This document shows, piece by piece, positions 1-5,421 of a stretch of 5,421 bases of DNA. Position 1 is the stretch's first letter, and each line of letters starts with the position of its first letter. The notes beneath the pieces were generated by a model. The model was not told the DNA's origin. It made no database searches and was given only the letters and a program-made list of their open reading frames with translations. Origin of the DNA: Lachnospiraceae bacterium (GTDB lineage: Bacteria; Bacillota_A; Clostridia; Lachnospirales; Lachnospiraceae); contig JAEEWS010000071.1 in the NCBI GenBank assembly GCA_016287765.1, positions 1-5,421 on the forward strand, in the 5' to 3' direction. Both the position numbers and the translations under genes were made by a program.

Positions 1-163
1 GGATAAACGCTGAAGGCATCTAAGCGTGAAGCCCCCCTCAAGATAAGATATCCCATAGCACAAGCTAGTAAGACCCCTTGAAGACGACAAGGTTGATAGG
101 TGAAAGGTGGAAGAGTGGTAACACTCGGAGCTGATTCATACTAATAGGTCGAGGGCTTAACCA
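1..163 (+). rRNA. 23S ribosomal RNA, 3' end (partial)
   Basis: This is the 3' terminal part of the large-subunit rRNA. It is recognised by the conserved blocks GCTGAAGGCATCTAAG (10-25), AAGACGACAAGGTTGATAGG, CTAATAGGTCGAGGGC and the closing GCTTAACC at 155-162. That last block would pair with the GGTTAAG-type sequence at the 5' end of 23S rRNA, which lies outside the window. The gene is cut by the left edge. The exact mature 3' end cannot be fixed from sequence and is placed within a few bases of 162-165. Confidence 0.96.
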
Positions 164-252
164 AAGTGGTTCTTGAAAGAATGGATGATTAGTATACAGT
201 TTTGAAGGTACACAATAGGTCGTGGACATAGTTCATGACCTTTTACCTTTAT
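164..252 (+). other. 23S-tRNA spacer without a 5S gene
   Basis: The spacer is only 89 bases, too short for a 5S rRNA of about 117 bases, and I see no 5S-like sequence in it. It holds a short inverted repeat TTCTTGAAAGAA (171-182) and a larger hairpin at 217-241. It is presumably transcribed as part of the rRNA precursor and removed when 23S and the tRNA are processed. Confidence 0.7.
217..241 (+). other. Hairpin in the rRNA-tRNA spacer
   Basis: AGGTCGTG (217-224) pairs with CATGACCT (234-241) as an 8-bp stem containing one G-U pair, around a 9-base loop. Only about four T residues follow, so it is at best a weak terminator. A processing hairpin between 23S and the tRNA is the more likely role, but this is inference. 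Confidence 0.4.
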
Positions 253-324
253 TCCTCGATAGCTCAATGGTAGAGCACTCGGCTGTTAACCGAGGTGTTG
301 TTGGTTCGAGCCCAATTCGGGGAG
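253..324 (+). tRNA. tRNA-Asn (anticodon GTT)
   Basis: A full cloverleaf can be drawn. The acceptor stem is TCCTCGA (253-259) with TCGGGGA (317-323), including one T-G wobble. The D arm is GCTC/GAGC (262-265/273-276). The anticodon stem is CTCGG/CCGAG (278-282/290-294) around loop CTGTTAA, with anticodon GTT at 285-287. The T arm is GTTGG/CCAAT (300-304/312-316) with loop TTCGAGC. G324 is the discriminator base. The next bases are TACA, so CCA is not encoded and must be added by tRNA nucleotidyltransferase. The gene is probably co-transcribed with the rRNA operon. Confidence 0.97.
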
Positions 325-331
325 TACATTG

Positions 332-359
332 CAGACAGTTTCGACTGTCTGTTTTTTTT
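332..359 (+). terminator. Rho-independent terminator of the rRNA-tRNA operon
   Basis: CAGACAGT (332-339) and ACTGTCTG (344-351) form a perfect 8-bp stem closed by a stable TTCG tetraloop, followed by eight T residues (352-359). It lies 7 bases past the tRNA and closes the rRNA transcription unit. Confidence 0.93.
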
Positions 360-370
360 ATCTCCGAATC

Positions 371-399
371 TTGCCTTTTTTACCCCATTGTTTTATATT
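371..399 (+). promoter_or_regulatory. Candidate sigma-A promoter for the DUF1538-PII unit
   Basis: TTGCCT (371-376) and TATATT (394-399) are separated by 17 bases and match 4/6 and 5/6 of the consensus. The predicted transcript would have a leader of about 95 bases before the start at 503. The gap 360-502 is strongly AT-rich, so chance matches are likely. A perfect TTGACA at 472-477 also exists, but it has only a poor -10 (TATTTC, 496-501) and would start transcription at the start codon itself. I see no riboswitch or terminator-type hairpin in this gap. Confidence 0.3.
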
Positions 400-502
400 T
401 AATCATATATTCATATCAGTTCCATACACACTATTCCTTAAGATGTATTTTTAATGCAATTTCATTCATTATTGACATTTCGATTTTTGTACGGGTATTT
501 CC

Positions 503-2038
503 ATGTTTGAACATAAGGATGTTACAATTGAAAAGATCAAAGAGTCATGTCGTTCGGTAGTTCCCATTTCAGGGATCGTTCTGGCACTGACTTTATTTTT
601 TATTCCTTTGAGCAGCGGATTGCTCCTTTCTTTTCTGCTCGGTTCTGTTTTGATTATCATAGGTATGGCTCTTTTTAACATCGGATCCGATGTTTCAATG
701 AGTCAGATCGGCGGAAACATCGGAGCAAAGATGACACAGTCGAGAAACATCTTTTTTATCCTTGGGTTGAGTCTCGCGCTCGGTATCGCTATTACCGTCG
801 CTGAACCGGATCTTCAGGTCCTTGCATCTAACGCTTCAAACATTAACAGGATGGCTTTGATAATCACCGTTTCTGTGGGCGTAGGCTTTTTCCTGATGCT
901 TGCCATGCTTCGTATCTTTTTCGGGATTCCGCTTAAATATTTGTTATTTGTTTTTTACGGGGCTGTTTTTGTCCTTGCTTTTCTTACCCGGCCGGATATG
1001 CTTTCCGTTGCCTTTGATGCCGGCGGAGTAACGACGGGGCCCATGACGGTTCCTTTCATAATGGCATTGGGCGTGGGTGTTGCCTCTATAAGAAGTGATA
1101 AAAGAGCAAAGGCGGATTCTTTCGGACTTGTCTCTTTGTGCTCCATAGGTCCGATACTTGCGGTATTCATCCTCGGCTTTTTCTATAAGGACGGTGCCTC
1201 CGAGCCGCTCGGGCTTCTTGAAGTCAGGAATTTTGACATTTCGGTTTCTCTTGGGCTGGGTTACCTGAAAGCGTTTCCCGAGTACATTTCGGAGGTTGCA
1301 CTTGCACTCCTTCCCATTTTCTGTTTCTTCATGCTTTTTCAGGTGATCTCTCTCAGATTAAACAAAAAAGCGATGACCAGGATCATGGTGGGCATCCTTT
1401 ATACCTATGCGGGGCTGGTCCTTTTCCTGACCGGAGTTAATGTCGGGTTTTCGTCACTCGGTTTCTGTCTGGGCGAGTCCATCGGAAATTCGAAAGCAGC
1501 CTGGACAGCCGTTCCCTTCGCGATGCTCATGGGATGGTTCATAATCAATGCCGAGCCGGCTGTACAGATCCTTAACAAACAGGTCAATGAGATCTCCGCG
1601 GGTGCGATCAGCGAAAAGGTGATGGGACGTTCTCTTTCCGTTGCAATTGCCGTAGCAATGGGACTTGCTTTGGTGAGGGTTCTGACAGGGCTTCCCATCC
1701 TGTATTTTGTGTTACCCGGTTATTTGATCGCTTTGATCTTGGCGATCTTTGTCTCACCGACGTTTACAGCCATTGCATTTGATGCGGGTGGTGTAGCATC
1801 CGGCCCCCTGACGGCGACTTTTGCACTTCCTTTTGCGATGGGCGTCTGTATGGCAACGGGCGGAAATGTAATGACCGATGCGTTCGGACTTGTGGCTCTG
1901 GTTGCTATGATGCCTCTTATCACGGTTCAGATCATGGGCGCGATCGCCATGGTGAAAACGAGAAAGGCTGCAAAAACCGTTACGTTGCCTGATTCCGTCG
2001 GAAACGACGAGATCATCGAACTTTGGGAGGTGGAGTGA
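503..2038 (+). CDS. DUF1538 family membrane transporter, two-repeat form
   Basis: This is a 511-residue, very hydrophobic inner-membrane protein with about a dozen or more predicted helices. It consists of two homologous halves. The first half carries AEP (100-102), FDAGGVTTGP (171-180) and DSFGLV (205-210). The second carries AEP (350-352), FDAGGVASGP (426-435) and DAFGLV (459-464), an offset of about 250-255 residues. These are hallmarks of DUF1538. From memory of the literature, a DUF1538 pair (UmpA/UmpB of Halomonas) was reported to act as a Na+(Li+,K+)/H+ antiporter. A cation/proton exchange role here is therefore an inference, with both halves joined in one chain. The buried acidic residues E101, D172, E351 and D427 are candidates for ion binding. 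The ATG at 503 lacks a good ribosome binding site, but no better in-frame start is seen, and it places the first helix at about residue 18. The stop overlaps the start of a PII-like gene by one base, so the two are probably translated together. Confidence 0.9.
   Translation: MFEHKDVTIEKIKESCRSVVPISGIVLALTLFFIPLSSGLLLSFLLGSVLIIIGMALFNIGSDVSMSQIGGNIGAKMTQSRNIFFILGLSLALGIAITVAEPDLQVLASNASNINRMALIITVSVGVGFFLMLAMLRIFFGIPLKYLLFVFYGAVFVLAFLTRPDMLSVAFDAGGVTTGPMTVPFIMALGVGVASIRSDKRAKADSFGLVSLCSIGPILAVFILGFFYKDGASEPLGLLEVRNFDISVSLGLGYLKAFPEYISEVALALLPIFCFFMLFQVISLRLNKKAMTRIMVGILYTYAGLVLFLTGVNVGFSSLGFCLGESIGNSKAAWTAVPFAMLMGWFIINAEPAVQILNKQVNEISAGAISEKVMGRSLSVAIAVAMGLALVRVLTGLPILYFVLPGYLIALILAIFVSPTFTAIAFDAGGVASGPLTATFALPFAMGVCMATGGNVMTDAFGLVALVAMMPLITVQIMGAIAMVKTRKAAKTVTLPDSVGNDEIIELWEVE
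2025..2030 (+). promoter_or_regulatory. Ribosome binding site fixing the PII-like start
   Basis: GGGAGG lies 7 bases before the ATG at 2038, inside the last codons of the DUF1538 gene. It supports ATG 2038 over an upstream TTG at 2023, which sits before this site. Together with the overlapping TGATG it indicates translational coupling. Confidence 0.75.
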
Positions 2039-2706
2039 TGGAGCTGTATTATGTTGTAAGCATATTGGATCGCAGTCGGGCTGATAAAATGGTGGAGCTC
2101 TATAAAGATGCGGGCATAACGGTCTGCCTTTCGACTCTTGCGAGAGGAACCGCCAAAAAATCACATCTGGATCTTCATGAGCTTGAAGCCACCGAAAAAA
2201 CAATAGTAAATGCAGTTGCATCGGGACATTCCGTGAAGCAGTTGATGAAAAATGCAAAGAAGCAGCTTTACATAGACATTCCGGGAAATGGGATCATGCT
2301 TTCGATACCGATGAAAAGCGTAGCGGGGCAAAAAACGTTGGATTTTATGACAAAAGGTCAGAATGCAGGAGGGACGGTTCCCAAAATGAAATTTTCGAAT
2401 GAATTGATCGTGATCATATTAAATGAAGGACATGCGGACACTGTGATGGACGCAGCAAGGGAAGCCGGAGCAACGGGTGGAACCGTGCTTCATGCAAAAG
2501 GCACAGGCAGTGCCAACGCCGAGAAATTCTTTGGCGTATCGATAGCCGAAGAAAAGGATCTGATCTACATCCTTGCACCTTCCAAAAAGAAGGCCGACAT
2601 AATGAAGGCAGTGAACGAAAAATGCGGCCTCGGCACTGAAGCGGGAGCTGTCAGCTTCTCACTCCCCGTTTCCGATGTGGCAGGCATACGCCGCATCGAC
2701 GACTGA
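2038..2706 (+). CDS. Tandem PII-like signalling protein
   Basis: This is a 222-residue soluble protein, about twice the 112 residues of a GlnB/GlnK protein. Residues 121-218 read as a PII fold: strand ELIVIIL, helix HADTVMDAAREAG, strand then HAKGTG (152-157), strand DLIYILA, helix KKADIMKAVNEKCG, then GAVSFSLPVSDVAGI. Residues 2-97 follow the same order: YYVVSIL, helix ADKMVELYKDAG, LARGTA (34-39), helix VKQLMKNA, GIMLSIPMKSVAG. The halves align with an offset of 118-119 residues, so this is an internal duplication. PII proteins are trimeric sensors of ATP/ADP and often 2-oxoglutarate, and they gate partner transporters or enzymes. I see no equivalent of the uridylylated T-loop Tyr51. Overlap with the DUF1538 gene makes that transporter the likely partner. 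The effector and the assembly form (two domains per chain against a trimeric fold) are unknown. NCBI-style naming would be P-II family nitrogen regulator, but a role in nitrogen control is not shown. Confidence 0.85.
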   Translation: MELYYVVSILDRSRADKMVELYKDAGITVCLSTLARGTAKKSHLDLHELEATEKTIVNAVASGHSVKQLMKNAKKQLYIDIPGNGIMLSIPMKSVAGQKTLDFMTKGQNAGGTVPKMKFSNELIVIILNEGHADTVMDAAREAGATGGTVLHAKGTGSANAEKFFGVSIAEEKDLIYILAPSKKKADIMKAVNEKCGLGTEAGAVSFSLPVSDVAGIRRIDD

Positions 2707-2715
2707 CCTTTTTGG

Positions 2716-2730
2716 ACCCCGGGACGGGGT
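2716..2730 (+). other. GC-rich hairpin between the PII-like and lipoprotein genes
   Basis: ACCCC (2716-2720) pairs with GGGGT (2726-2730) across a 5-base loop. No T-run follows, so it is not a standard terminator. It may shape or stabilise the mRNA between the two genes. Transcription could continue into the lipoprotein gene 58 bases on, for which I see no convincing separate promoter. Confidence 0.35.
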
Positions 2731-2764
2731 TAGAGGTACATTTTTCGAAGTACGAGGAATTCAT

Positions 2765-3856
2765 ATGAAGATAAAAGTAACCATTTTTGCTGCATCAGCC
2801 TTGTTTCTTGCGGGTTGTGGCAGTTTCATCACCAACACTCCGGGGCCCGTGATCACGGATGTTCCGGCTGTTGAGAAGAATGAGTCCAAGGCAACGGATA
2901 CACCCACGCCTACGCCGACTCCCGCCAAGCCTTCGGATATGAGAGCGGAGACTGAAGCAGCAGAAGTGTTTCCGAATGACATACAGCGTGAGGCGGCAGC
3001 GATAATAGATGAAAGCATATGGGCCGCGCTGGACGGGGTATATGCCTATGAGCCCTTCATTCCCGAGGATTTCTATCTGACAGCGGAAAGCAGGCCGTTT
3101 AAAGTGGAATGGGAGGTTTACAGTTCTTGTGATCCCTCATCAGAAAAGCTTGCCCGTAAGATCGAGGAACTGTCGGCGGATCTTGGGGCATTTCGTATAA
3201 AGGAAAGCGAATGGGGAAAGTCACTGGTGATAGATACGCTCACAGCCAACACTCTGCTGGTGTTCACGGATCCGAGGCTGATGTGCTACCAGCTCACGGG
3301 CTTTGACAGAAATGATGTCGTAAACGGTTATTTTGATCCAAACACGGGCACTTCCGCAGCAGTTACTCCGGGAACTCCGAAAATGGAAAAGCTGAAACAT
3401 GACATGGAAGTTTTTGATGCAGTTTTAAAACGTGTGACGGACAAAATGCCTGAGGACTACTCAGATGCACAAAAATATACTTACCTTGCCATGGTGCTGG
3501 CGACGAAATGCAACTATGATAAGACGTATGCCATTCCTACGAACGGAACGGCCTACGGGGCTCTGGTGAACGGCTGTGCCATATGCCAGGGATATGCGTC
3601 GGCTTATCAACTGCTCTGCGAAGCGGCAGACCTTTCCTGCAGCATGGTGGAAGGACAGGCTGACGGCGTGGGGCACATGTGGAATCTTGTCACATTGAAC
3701 GACGAGACCTATTATGTGGATGTGACATGGGCTGACGGGGACGGGATCACGGAGCCTGACTTTGAAACCTATATTTTCATGTCGGAAGAGGAAGCAGCAG
3801 AGCAGGATCACACCCGCACCAACGGACCGAAAGCCACAGGTGAGACTTTAAGATGA
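2765..3856 (+). CDS. Transglutaminase-like domain lipoprotein
   Basis: This is a 363-residue lipoprotein. The N-terminus MKIK, a hydrophobic stretch and lipobox LAGC (15-18) predict lipidation at Cys18 and anchoring to the outer face of the membrane. A TPTPTPTP linker (46-53) follows, typical of Gram-positive surface proteins. Residues 60-200 form a region I do not recognise. The C-terminal part is a transglutaminase-like (papain-fold) domain with a plausible complete triad: Cys274 in CQGYA, His304 in GHMWN and Asp319 in YYVDVTW. Domains of this family act as cysteine proteases or transglutaminases in many bacteria, and the substrate here is unknown. ATG 2765 is chosen because GAGGA (2754-2758) lies 6 bases upstream and the signal peptide begins there; a longer frame from 2675 would place 30 odd residues before the signal. 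The protein ends soon after the domain, perhaps slightly short at the C-terminus. It may share a transcript with the upstream pair, but no functional link is evident. Confidence 0.9.
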   Translation: MKIKVTIFAASALFLAGCGSFITNTPGPVITDVPAVEKNESKATDTPTPTPTPAKPSDMRAETEAAEVFPNDIQREAAAIIDESIWAALDGVYAYEPFIPEDFYLTAESRPFKVEWEVYSSCDPSSEKLARKIEELSADLGAFRIKESEWGKSLVIDTLTANTLLVFTDPRLMCYQLTGFDRNDVVNGYFDPNTGTSAAVTPGTPKMEKLKHDMEVFDAVLKRVTDKMPEDYSDAQKYTYLAMVLATKCNYDKTYAIPTNGTAYGALVNGCAICQGYASAYQLLCEAADLSCSMVEGQADGVGHMWNLVTLNDETYYVDVTWADGDGITEPDFETYIFMSEEEAAEQDHTRTNGPKATGETLR

Positions 3857-3900
3857 TAATTCTTGCCACGCTTATGGATGGATTTTCCGGAGTGATTTAA
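3853..3900 (+). pseudogene. 15-codon ORF coupled to the lipoprotein stop, possible gene remnant
   Basis: An ATG at 3853 overlaps the lipoprotein stop (ATGA), has AGGTGAG (3838-3844) 8 bases upstream, and opens a frame reading MIILATLMDGFSGVI before TAA at 3898-3900. The coupled start with a fair ribosome binding site looks like the beginning of a further operon gene. The frame ends just where AT-rich sequence and a new promoter begin. It may be a truncated gene, a tiny peptide or chance. No terminator was found after the lipoprotein gene (3857-3924). Confidence 0.22.
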
Positions 3901-3924
3901 TATCGGCAGCAGTAAATACCTTTG

Positions 3925-3953
3925 TTGATAATCACAAAAAAGTGTGGTATAAT
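3925..3953 (+). promoter_or_regulatory. Strong sigma-A promoter of the nucleotidyltransferase cassette
   Basis: TTGATA (3925-3930), a 17-base spacer and a perfect TATAAT (3948-3953) preceded by TGG (extended -10) make a near-consensus vegetative promoter. Transcription would start near 3960, about 30 bases before the first gene. A small palindrome TGATAATCA (3926-3934) overlaps the -35, and CAC-AAAAAA-GTG lies in the spacer (3933-3944). Either could be an operator for autoregulation, but both are short. Confidence 0.85.
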
Positions 3954-3988
3954 GTACCCTACAAAACTGAAAAATATTTGGAGAATGT

Positions 3989-4639
3989 ATGGGCAGAAAT
4001 GATAGTGAATATGAAAGCCTTAATAAGCGGCTTAATGAGATTAAAAATAAAATAAATACTTATCCCAAAGGCTGTTTACGATATAGAGTGATGCACGGAA
4101 AGGAATATTGCTATCTTCAGTTCAGAGAAGGCGGGCATATTAGAAGTCTATATCTTAAGAGAGATGAGATAGAAAAAACATGTGCGGCTATTGAGACAAG
4201 AAAAGAACTGGAAAAGCAGGCAAAGGAACTGGAAAAACGATTATCCCTCTATGCTCAGCTTATAGGAAAACACAAAAAATATCGACCGGTCAGAAATGTA
4301 GACTATGAGCAATACACGTTGTTTATGTCAACTGTTGCTCACGATCATAAGAATATGCAGCGGGATGCTTTTTTGGAAAAGTATGATGAATCAAAATTCA
4401 GAGGACTTAACAAACGATATCTTGCCGGGTATTTGGATCATATAAACGGTATAGACAGAGGTTACAGAAGAAAAACCAATGATCTTGTTCTGGATCCGTA
4501 TACCTATCTTATGTACTTTAAGTATGACAAAAAGGAAGTCCTTGAGGAGGAACTGGAGCGAGCGATCCCGGCTTTTTTAAACAGAGGTCTTTTGATAACC
4601 GATGTACAGGAGGCGGTAAGTGGCACATTTAGTCAATGA
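3989..4639 (+). CDS. Coiled-coil protein, partner of a nucleotidyltransferase (possible antitoxin)
   Basis: This is a 216-residue, highly charged soluble protein of unknown function. GGAG (3980-3983) lies 5 bases before the ATG. Residues 5-22 are helical. Residues 27-56 carry a KG-x7-GKEYCYLQFREGG-x-IRSLYL pattern, probably a beta hairpin, similar to a motif I know from small Firmicutes proteins and DUF6788-like sequences. Residues 57-93 form a Lys/Glu-rich helix, probably a coiled coil. The C-terminal part (105-216) is mixed charged and aromatic, with DPYTYLMYFKY at 169-179, and is not recognised. I see no clear helix-turn-helix. It is the first gene of a compact pair whose second encodes a nucleotidyltransferase, and the two overlap by 20 bases. 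In AbiE and MenAT-like systems the antitoxin commonly precedes the nucleotidyltransferase toxin, so an antitoxin or regulatory role is plausible but inferred only from arrangement. It is markedly AT-rich relative to the upstream genes. Confidence 0.8.
   Translation: MGRNDSEYESLNKRLNEIKNKINTYPKGCLRYRVMHGKEYCYLQFREGGHIRSLYLKRDEIEKTCAAIETRKELEKQAKELEKRLSLYAQLIGKHKKYRPVRNVDYEQYTLFMSTVAHDHKNMQRDAFLEKYDESKFRGLNKRYLAGYLDHINGIDRGYRRKTNDLVLDPYTYLMYFKYDKKEVLEEELERAIPAFLNRGLLITDVQEAVSGTFSQ
4608..4613 (+). promoter_or_regulatory. Perfect ribosome binding site for the GTG start of the nucleotidyltransferase
   Basis: AGGAGG lies 6 bases upstream of GTG 4620, inside the end of the preceding gene. Its perfect match and spacing decide the non-ATG start and point to coupled, possibly efficient translation of the second gene. 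Confidence 0.85.
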
Positions 4640-5198
4640 GGAATATCTTTACAGGGAAAATATTGATGAATACTTTGACTGTTTAGCAAAGAATATTGAC
4701 GAAGCAGGTATAGGTAAACATAAGATACTGGTAGTTGGCGGAGCTGCAATGGCACTGAAATATCACGACGGAAGATCTACTGTCGATATTGATATTTGTT
4801 TTCGCGAGCAAAATAATCTGTATTCATGTTGCAAAAAGGTTGCTGAGAAATATGATCTTCCTGAAGACTGGATCAATTCAGATGTTATGCATTCGGAATC
4901 TTTTTCTTACGCGTTGTTTGAAAATGCGAATCTCTACAGAACATTTTACGATGTTTTGGAAGTGTACGTAGTAGATGATATAGACATATATTGTATGAAA
5001 CTTGTTTCTTTTCGTCCGAAAGATGTTCAGGATATGGAGGTCTTGGCTGAAACACTTAAGGCTAAAGGGGTTACATCCGACCAAATGATTAAAAACTTTG
5101 TCAGATTGTATGGGGATGAGTTCCTTTTGCGAAAAGACAGCAGAAAGATACGCTTTATGGAAGCACAACTAAGATCAATTGATAAAGAAATCCCATAA
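4620..5198 (+). CDS. DUF6036/AbiEii-like nucleotidyltransferase (possible toxin)
   Basis: This is a 192-residue protein with a minimal nucleotidyltransferase fold of the DNA polymerase beta superfamily. Strand KILVVGG and helix AAMALKY (35-48) are followed by TVDIDICF (54-61), giving the GG...DxD signature with metal-binding Asp56 and Asp58. Further on, EVYVVDDIDIYCMKL (114-128) and FRPKDVQDME (131-140) match the Lys and Arg/Asp-containing C-terminal part of DUF6036 and AbiEii-type proteins. Members of the wider group include toxins that transfer nucleotides to tRNA (MenT) and abortive-infection effectors; others are uncharacterised. The catalytic residues look intact, so it should be active. 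The start is GTG, set by a perfect AGGAGG, and it overlaps the upstream gene by 20 bases. A terminator follows directly. The spacing between GG and DxD differs from the GSxxRG...SDxDL motif of HEPN-associated MNT antitoxins, so I favour the AbiEii/DUF6036 type. Toxicity is inferred, not shown. Confidence 0.8.
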   Translation: MAHLVNEEYLYRENIDEYFDCLAKNIDEAGIGKHKILVVGGAAMALKYHDGRSTVDIDICFREQNNLYSCCKKVAEKYDLPEDWINSDVMHSESFSYALFENANLYRTFYDVLEVYVVDDIDIYCMKLVSFRPKDVQDMEVLAETLKAKGVTSDQMIKNFVRLYGDEFLLRKDSRKIRFMEAQLRSIDKEIP

Positions 5199-5204
5199 TC
5201 CCCC

Positions 5205-5236
5205 GTGCAGTGACAAACTGTCACTGCACTTTTTTT
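5205..5236 (+). terminator. Rho-independent terminator of the nucleotidyltransferase cassette
   Basis: GTGCAGTGACA (5205-5215) and TGTCACTGCAC (5219-5229) form a perfect 11-bp stem with a 3-base loop, followed by seven T residues (5230-5236). It starts 6 bases after the nucleotidyltransferase stop codon. There is no A-run on the left side, so it acts in the + direction only. Confidence 0.95.
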
Positions 5237-5239
5237 ATG

Positions 5240-5278
5240 ACAATGGACCGCTGCATAGCAGGGGAGAGACTCCATTGT
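5240..5278. repeat. Inverted repeat with nested hairpin
   Basis: ACAATGGA (5240-5247) and TCCATTGT (5271-5278) form a perfect 8-bp inverted repeat. Inside it CTGC-ATA-GCAG (5251-5261) forms a second small stem. It lies after the cassette terminator and upstream of the likely start of the next transcript, so it is probably not in an mRNA unless another promoter exists. No T-run follows on either strand. It may be a protein binding site or a relic; the function is unknown. Confidence 0.4.
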
Positions 5279-5309
5279 ATACAGCAAACACCACCTAAAG
5301 TGACTAAAC

Positions 5310-5337
5310 TGTCACTTGCCTGTCATTCCCTTGTCAT
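5310..5337 (+). promoter_or_regulatory. Three phased TGTCAY boxes, likely response-regulator site
   Basis: TGTCAC (5310-5315), TGTCAT (5321-5326) and TGTCAT (5332-5337) start exactly 11 bases apart, so they fall on one face of the helix. Phased direct repeats of this kind are typical binding sites of OmpR/PhoB-family response regulators. The last box ends 10 bases before a weak -10 (TAAAGT, 5348-5353), as in activator-dependent promoters lacking a -35. The first box also lies in an inverted repeat, AAGTGAC/GTCACTT (5298-5304/5311-5317). Confidence 0.6.
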
Positions 5338-5347
5338 GAAGAAGTGG

Positions 5348-5353
5348 TAAAGT
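5348..5353 (+). promoter_or_regulatory. Candidate -10 element of the ABC transporter gene
   Basis: TAAAGT matches 4 of 6 consensus positions and lies 10 bases past the last TGTCAT box. An alternative is TTGTCA (5331-5336) as a -35 with AACAAT (5355-5360) as the -10, spacing 18. The weak core elements fit a promoter needing an activator. Confidence 0.35.
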
Positions 5354-5393
5354 TAACAATGTCGAAAGCGAAACGACAGAAAAGGAGAGAGTC

Positions 5394-5421
5394 ATGGAAA
5401 TTTTAAGATGTGAGAACATAT
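5394..5421 (+). CDS. Probable ABC transporter ATP-binding protein (5' end only)
   Basis: Only nine codons are present (MEILRCENI) before the right edge. AGGAGA (5383-5388) lies 5 bases before the ATG, a strong ribosome binding site. The opening residues match the usual first strand of MacB/bacitracin-type ABC ATPases in Clostridia, which normally precedes the Walker A motif by about 30 residues. The upstream phased boxes suggest control by a two-component regulator, as is common for peptide-antibiotic exporters, but the substrate cannot be read from this fragment. Identification rests on a very short match. Confidence 0.55.

Follow-up and report, generated by a model that had tools for sequence, protein, structure and literature searches.

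To our knowledge, UmpAB is the only DUF1538 pair that has been characterised so far. In this paper, we have analysed a 5,421-nucleotide stretch of DNA from a Lachnospiraceae bacterium (assembly GCA_016287765.1, contig JAEEWS010000071.1, positions 1 to 5,421; the whole stretch is called the window below), in which the gene for a membrane protein with two DUF1538 domains is overlapped by one base by the gene for a predicted tandem protein of the PII superfamily. UmpAB of Halomonas zhaodongensis is described, in the main text of its report, as an Na+(Li+,K+)/H+ antiporter and a heterodimer; its genes umpA and umpB also overlap by one base, each product has seven predicted transmembrane segments (TMs), and the C-terminus of UmpB is hydrophilic (PMC5484666). 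The antiport activity came from a clone with four reported open reading frames, none of which encodes PII, and neither PII nor P-II is mentioned in that main text (PMC5484666); antiport without a PII gene is as expected if PII modulates the carrier rather than forms it.

Pairs of PII proteins and transporters are known already. According to the cited passages of a review (PMC10710835), PII control has been reported for AmtB, Amt1, NrtABCD, UrtABCDE and SbtA. AmtB and GlnK are like the window pair in that transporter and PII protein are genetically linked, GlnK plugging the channel (PMC10710835); the window pair differs from them in that its regulator lacks a uridylylation-type motif and the predicted DUF1538 model has no clear match among solved structures. 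SbtB, whose single-domain chains have about 100 amino acids (aa), acts as a trimer on the trimeric SbtA carrier (PMC10710835, same passages), whereas the window regulator has tandem domains and its carrier is probably an antiparallel DUF1538 protein. Where SbtB would be recognised by its partner SbtA, the partner gene in the window is DUF1538. CzcABC is an RND-type system, and Sant'Anna 2009 is reportedly the source for its clustering with PII-NG genes. PII-NG of Geobacter resembles the window regulator in that a PII-superfamily gene clusters with a proton/cation antiporter (PMC7726332, in the passage cited); the window differs in its DUF1538 partner and its tandem PII, and no CzcABC-type antiporter was found among the five window proteins scanned. 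The new elements are the DUF1538 partner, the tandem regulator and the putative antiparallel carrier. No account of a DUF1538-PII pair was found in the part of the DUF1538 literature covered (PMC5484666, PMC13255231) or by a literature search on PII and antiporters, and PII does not occur in PMC13255231, which names DUF1538.

The DUF1538 and PII genes of the window

The membrane protein (511 aa; 503..2038, forward strand) matches DUF1538 (PF07556) with 436.9 bits against a gathering score of 22.6, in two stretches covering both halves, i.e. residues 1-246 (503..1240) and residues 247-511 (1241..2035), the latter with its Pfam stretch at 272-480. It scores 177.3 bits against the UmpA equivalog model NF041627 and 128.8 bits against the UmpB model NF041628, far under the respective curated cut-offs of 490 and 500. 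Thus, it shares two DUF1538 domains with UmpAB and differs from it in these scores and in the fusion of the domains. The AlphaFold2 model (mean predicted local distance difference test, pLDDT, 80.8; predicted template modelling score 0.81) shows broken helices at the EPDLQ/EPAVQ and FDAGGV(T/A)(T/S)GP motifs, and E101, D103, D172, D205, E351 and D427 are invariant across 51 sequences. We infer that the protein is a fused antiporter of the UmpAB kind, most likely a secondary transporter with Na+(K+)/H+ antiport. The initial annotation of this DNA had proposed a PII-controlled cation/proton antiporter; the antiport of the relative UmpAB (main text of PMC5484666) speaks in part for this proposal, but the window protein scores far under the UmpA and UmpB cut-offs.

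The second gene (2038..2706, forward strand), for a protein of 222 aa, starts within a TGATG stop/start overlap (2036..2040) in which one base is shared. Its C-terminal domain (residues 118-221; 2389..2700) matches Pfam P-II with an E-value of 1.7e-12, and its predicted fold is nearest to SbtB (solved with AMP or cAMP), GlnK and PstA; its N-terminal domain (residues 1-111; 2038..2370) is nearest to CutA1 in the same model, which is of moderate confidence, and gave no Pfam match when scanned alone. The two domains are strongly diverged; a P-II match was obtained for 18 of 19 PII domains scanned. Given the double beta-alpha-beta fold of the model together with the P-II sequence match, the predicted protein is a member of the PII superfamily. 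The repeats, the one-base overlap and the PII-type fold proposed in the initial annotation are thus borne out by Pfam, by the sequence and by the predicted folds.

The membrane protein ends in a predicted cytosolic tail with the sequence DEIIELWEVE at its end (1976..2035, forward strand), of which residues 493-511 have a pLDDT under 50, and the codons of its W-E-V overlap the Shine-Dalgarno-like GGGAGGTG of the PII gene. Many fused proteins of the window's clade have an acidic IIEL-type end after a variable linker: a pattern of our own matched 76 of 106 fused units with a window-type N-domain, one of two with an unseen N-domain, and none of the 20 whose N-domain is of the other type, and no IIEL motif was seen in the tails of separate DUF1538 pairs. 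The tail was therefore rejected as a universal docking peptide. In the window's clade it is a possible docking site, and a lead only, because the correlation is a single one at the level of clades and the codons of the final residues run into the ribosome-binding site of the PII gene.

Pairing of the two genes across genomes

A scan of genome contigs with a DUF1538 alignment returned 586 relatives, of which the best-scoring 80 loci were taken and are hence close to the window; the closest is a locus of a Lachnospiraceae metagenome-assembled genome (L001), with a membrane protein 79% identical to that of the window. A census was also made of 299 genomes of one phylum, and the two sets have no overlap at at least 95% identity in the second DUF1538 domain. 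A PII-type gene lies directly downstream in 79 of these best 80 loci, some of them clipped by a contig end, and in the remaining one the sequence stops 105 bases past DUF1538. In the census, DUF1538 was found in 101 genomes and DUF1538-type PII in 98, with 97 genomes encoding both, four DUF1538 only, one PII only and 197 neither (p 1.2e-72). Three of the four genomes with DUF1538 only do carry a PII gene in the examined locus (L206, L177, L182); in the remaining one, G059, DUF1538 is a remnant that contains stops. When coordinates were compared, 99 of the 101 DUF1538 genomes had PII immediately after one or more of their DUF1538 units. This count is made up of 80 of 81 genomes by loci, G001 through its locus L069, and 18 of the 19 for which coordinates were the sole basis. 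The two genomes that deviate are G059 and G221, the latter with its tandem PII on another contig. PII also follows DUF1538 in nine of nine plasmid records, two of which are unannotated and had their PII called with a custom profile; three are alphaproteobacterial, and these three records, from two species, make up the proteobacterial evidence.

The DUF1538-PII pair is a recurrent two-gene module. No other neighbour is common beside it, the largest group being an ABC ATPase at 18 loci. In 133 of 172 units, the PII gene begins between -25 and +30 nucleotides from the stop codon of DUF1538; the start rule chose the ATG nearest to this codon, which biases the distances towards small values. There is no general tie between PII genes and DUF1538, because 33 of 48 general P-II matches in 20 genomes (10 with and 10 without DUF1538) were away from it; 15 of these genomes had such matches, 1 to 7 each. 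The adjacency is so regular across the sampled genomes that control of the transporter by the sensor is probable. A coupling of PII to DUF1538 had been conjectured from the window, and within the one phylum and the nine plasmid records covered, neither rare adjacency nor a confident non-PII fold was found.

DUF1538-type PII genes also occur in other surroundings. At L217 (1-3047), a single-domain PII of this type comes after the gene for the NAD(P) transhydrogenase beta subunit (PntB), and DUF1538 is not there; at L216 (2781-5310), one is located downstream of an MFS/sugar transporter gene.

Charge bias, domain numbers and trees

The lysine and arginine residues (K+R) were counted in the loops of the 7-TM unit, whose boundaries were set on the window protein. 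The bias is +7 in its first half, which is predicted to have its N-terminus inside, and -7 in its second half, which is predicted to have the opposite orientation and a cytosolic C-terminus. In 68 of the 128 fused units with a tandem PII plus 35 separate pairs, the bias was positive in 103 of 103 first domains (class averages +4.1 to +7.4) and negative in 103 of 103 second domains (class averages -5.1 to -7.0). Because the bias is opposite, the two halves are probably antiparallel. The nine lone DUF1538 proteins have a mean bias of +0.6 (range -2 to +3), as would be expected for dual topology; seven of their loci are in genomes with exactly one DUF1538 match, and two in genomes with three. According to the cited part of PMC3962082, the same pattern of bias is found in EmrE/CrcB-like dual-topology proteins, in pairs of opposite orientation and in the DUF606 family. 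Like DUF1538, this DUF606/EmrE-type series has a lone gene of near-zero bias, a pair of opposite orientation and a fused two-domain protein in one family (PMC3962082, same part), whereas DUF1538 differs in its 7-TM domains and in the presence of a PII gene at each stage. The putative opposite orientation of the DUF1538 halves and the near-zero bias of the lone forms, as read from these counts, are new here.

The numbers of domains were compared in 174 units with both genes, one mis-parsed unit having been corrected. A fused DUF1538 pair with a tandem PII makes up 128 of them (a few with a broken DUF1538 frame; in L174 and L182 the first PII domain was inferred from length), and a fused pair occurs once with two PII genes and once with a PII clipped by the contig end; separate DUF1538 pairs come with a tandem PII (14 units), two PII genes (6) or one PII (15), and a single DUF1538 with one PII (9). 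Bar the clipped unit, no fused transporter with a single PII domain was found among the 130, and PII is doubled only in units with two DUF1538 domains. This part of the matched duplication pointed out in the initial annotation stands, as a tendency and not a rule, because 15 of the 35 separate pairs have one PII domain.

A quick-method tree of PII domains (112 rows), limited by its 99 columns and several long branches, contains one branch (support 92, not starred) that parts 44 first-type domains from 68 second-type and single domains; because one branch does so, a single PII duplication, never seen with a lone DUF1538, fits these data. This tree left out L091, four fused units whose N-domain was unseen or long (L168, L174, L182 and L194), the odd units L017 and L131, extracts of at most 75 residues, and most fused units, of which 24 were kept, the window among them. 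An earlier tree of 196 rows, which included a parsing artefact (L091 taken as tandem, although its annotated coding sequence has a single domain), was less tidy and required three changes each for the fused N- and C-domains. In a quick-method tree of DUF1538 domains from the same subset of units (112 rows), the first, second and lone types each lie on one side of a starred branch (99, 99 and 98), and fused versus separate amounts to one change among the second domains. The separate and tandem PII arrangements are interleaved on this tree, which suggests more than one interchange between them.

Fourteen long proteins match the PII part. Five of them contain DUF1538, namely one clean in-frame DUF1538-DUF1538-PII-PII fusion (P0245), two that are apparently frame-shifted and two with internal deletions; of the other nine, eight have other Pfam domains and one has none.

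Several loci have unusual layouts. In L125 (240-5085), the first DUF1538 gene is apparently split, its two fragments (240-563 and 2962-3432) being about 2.4 kb apart, and a c-di-AMP riboswitch (4913-5085) is located just past the DUF1538-PII unit. L149 (1608-6121) carries two complete fused DUF1538-tandem PII units in tandem, while L152 and L162 each carry two separate-pair units with a single PII.

A proposed regulated transport module and its alternatives

Taking together the predicted PII- and CutA1-type folds, the gene pairing, the opposite charge bias and the range of domain numbers, we think it probable, if well short of certain, that the pair is a self-contained regulated module in which the tandem PII sensor docks on an antiparallel DUF1538 antiporter and gates it. 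Such docking, its ligand, the direction in which control acts and the substrate that this organism transports are inferred as follows. The membrane protein would be a secondary transporter of the DUF1538/UmpAB family with two antiparallel halves (7+7 TM), and the tandem protein its co-translated PII-family sensor, with a ligand state set most likely by an adenine nucleotide. The liganded sensor would dock on the cytoplasmic face of the transporter, possibly via the acidic IIEL tail in the window's clade, and would shut or open the carrier, in the way that AmtB is controlled by GlnK and SbtA by AMP-bound SbtB. The PII protein may form a trimer-based assembly, and its diverged N-domain may make it a two-sensor regulator. 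More speculatively, and with considerable doubt, PII control might have been carried along the whole dual-topology series, the regulator of the asymmetric transporter having become a hetero-assembly (PII-like plus CutA1-like) in which one docked complex reads two signals, the first being for instance an adenine nucleotide and the other an ion or second messenger.

Three findings weigh against such a gated module. Firstly, four DUF1538-type PII profile matches lie away from any DUF1538 gene, i.e. G221:C77, G283:C68 (next to an MFS transporter), G105:C13 (next to PntB) and one in G052:C31 that is weak and partial. Secondly, the uridylylation-type T-loop and the classical C-terminal P-II motif are both absent from the window protein and were found in 0 of 324 domains from related loci (one extract being an artefact). 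Thirdly, the sole clean fusion, P0245, is on one contig, and the fusion evidence is weak because comparable PII joins look like assembly or sequencing errors.

The first of these findings would also suit a co-transcribed PII-like sensor that does not touch the transporter and signals the state of ions, pH or energy to a different target, an enzyme or a transcription regulator; PII proteins have many soluble targets, and the clone from which UmpAB was active in E. coli had no PII gene, as stated in the main text of its report (PMC5484666). We regard this as unlikely, as no other gene is common beside the pair, the genomes with PII and those with DUF1538 coincide, and duplicated PII is seen only where a unit holds two DUF1538 domains. 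Still less probable is a tandem CutA1/PII-like protein that binds a metal or solute, serves to deliver or buffer the ion being transported and is no nucleotide-controlled gate, in view of the P-II matches of nearly all domains scanned and of a C-half whose nearest folds are GlnK and an SbtB solved with AMP or cAMP. The least credible reading is the strict one raised in the initial annotation, of one PII domain docked per transporter half in a pseudo-symmetric complex: matched 2:2 numbers in 129 of 130 fused units and 20 of 35 separate pairs favour it, but the 15 separate pairs with one PII domain and the divergence of the two PII domains do not, and with inverted halves the pseudo-twofold axis would lie in the membrane plane, so that unlike ends would face the cytoplasm and a cytosolic regulator would reach the cytoplasmic face only.

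The gated module proposed for the window sits directly downstream of the end of an rRNA operon, the 3' end of a 23S rRNA gene (window 1-164), with a tRNA-Asn at 252-325. About 60 bases past the PII gene starts a gene for a transglutaminase-like lipoprotein (window 2765-3856; Pfam Transglut_core, E-value 8.1e-8). At window 3989-5198, a gene for a 216-aa protein without a family match above the cut-off overlaps a DUF6036 nucleotidyltransferase gene (E-value 6.3e-12), and this pair may, we presume, resemble nucleotidyltransferase-type toxin-antitoxin pairs.

If the proposed gating is true, the DUF1538-PII pair would be the first PII-gated antiparallel (non-trimeric) antiporter, and PII regulation would extend to a family of antiporters in which one pair has been characterised and, against a published generalisation, to a probably non-trimeric carrier. 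Genes annotated as 'P-II family nitrogen regulator' would gain a concrete partner without an obvious link to nitrogen, and the regulation of DUF1538 would become directly testable. The natural set of units, with 1:1, 2:1 and 2:2 domains, would allow transporter asymmetry and regulator duplication to be studied together.
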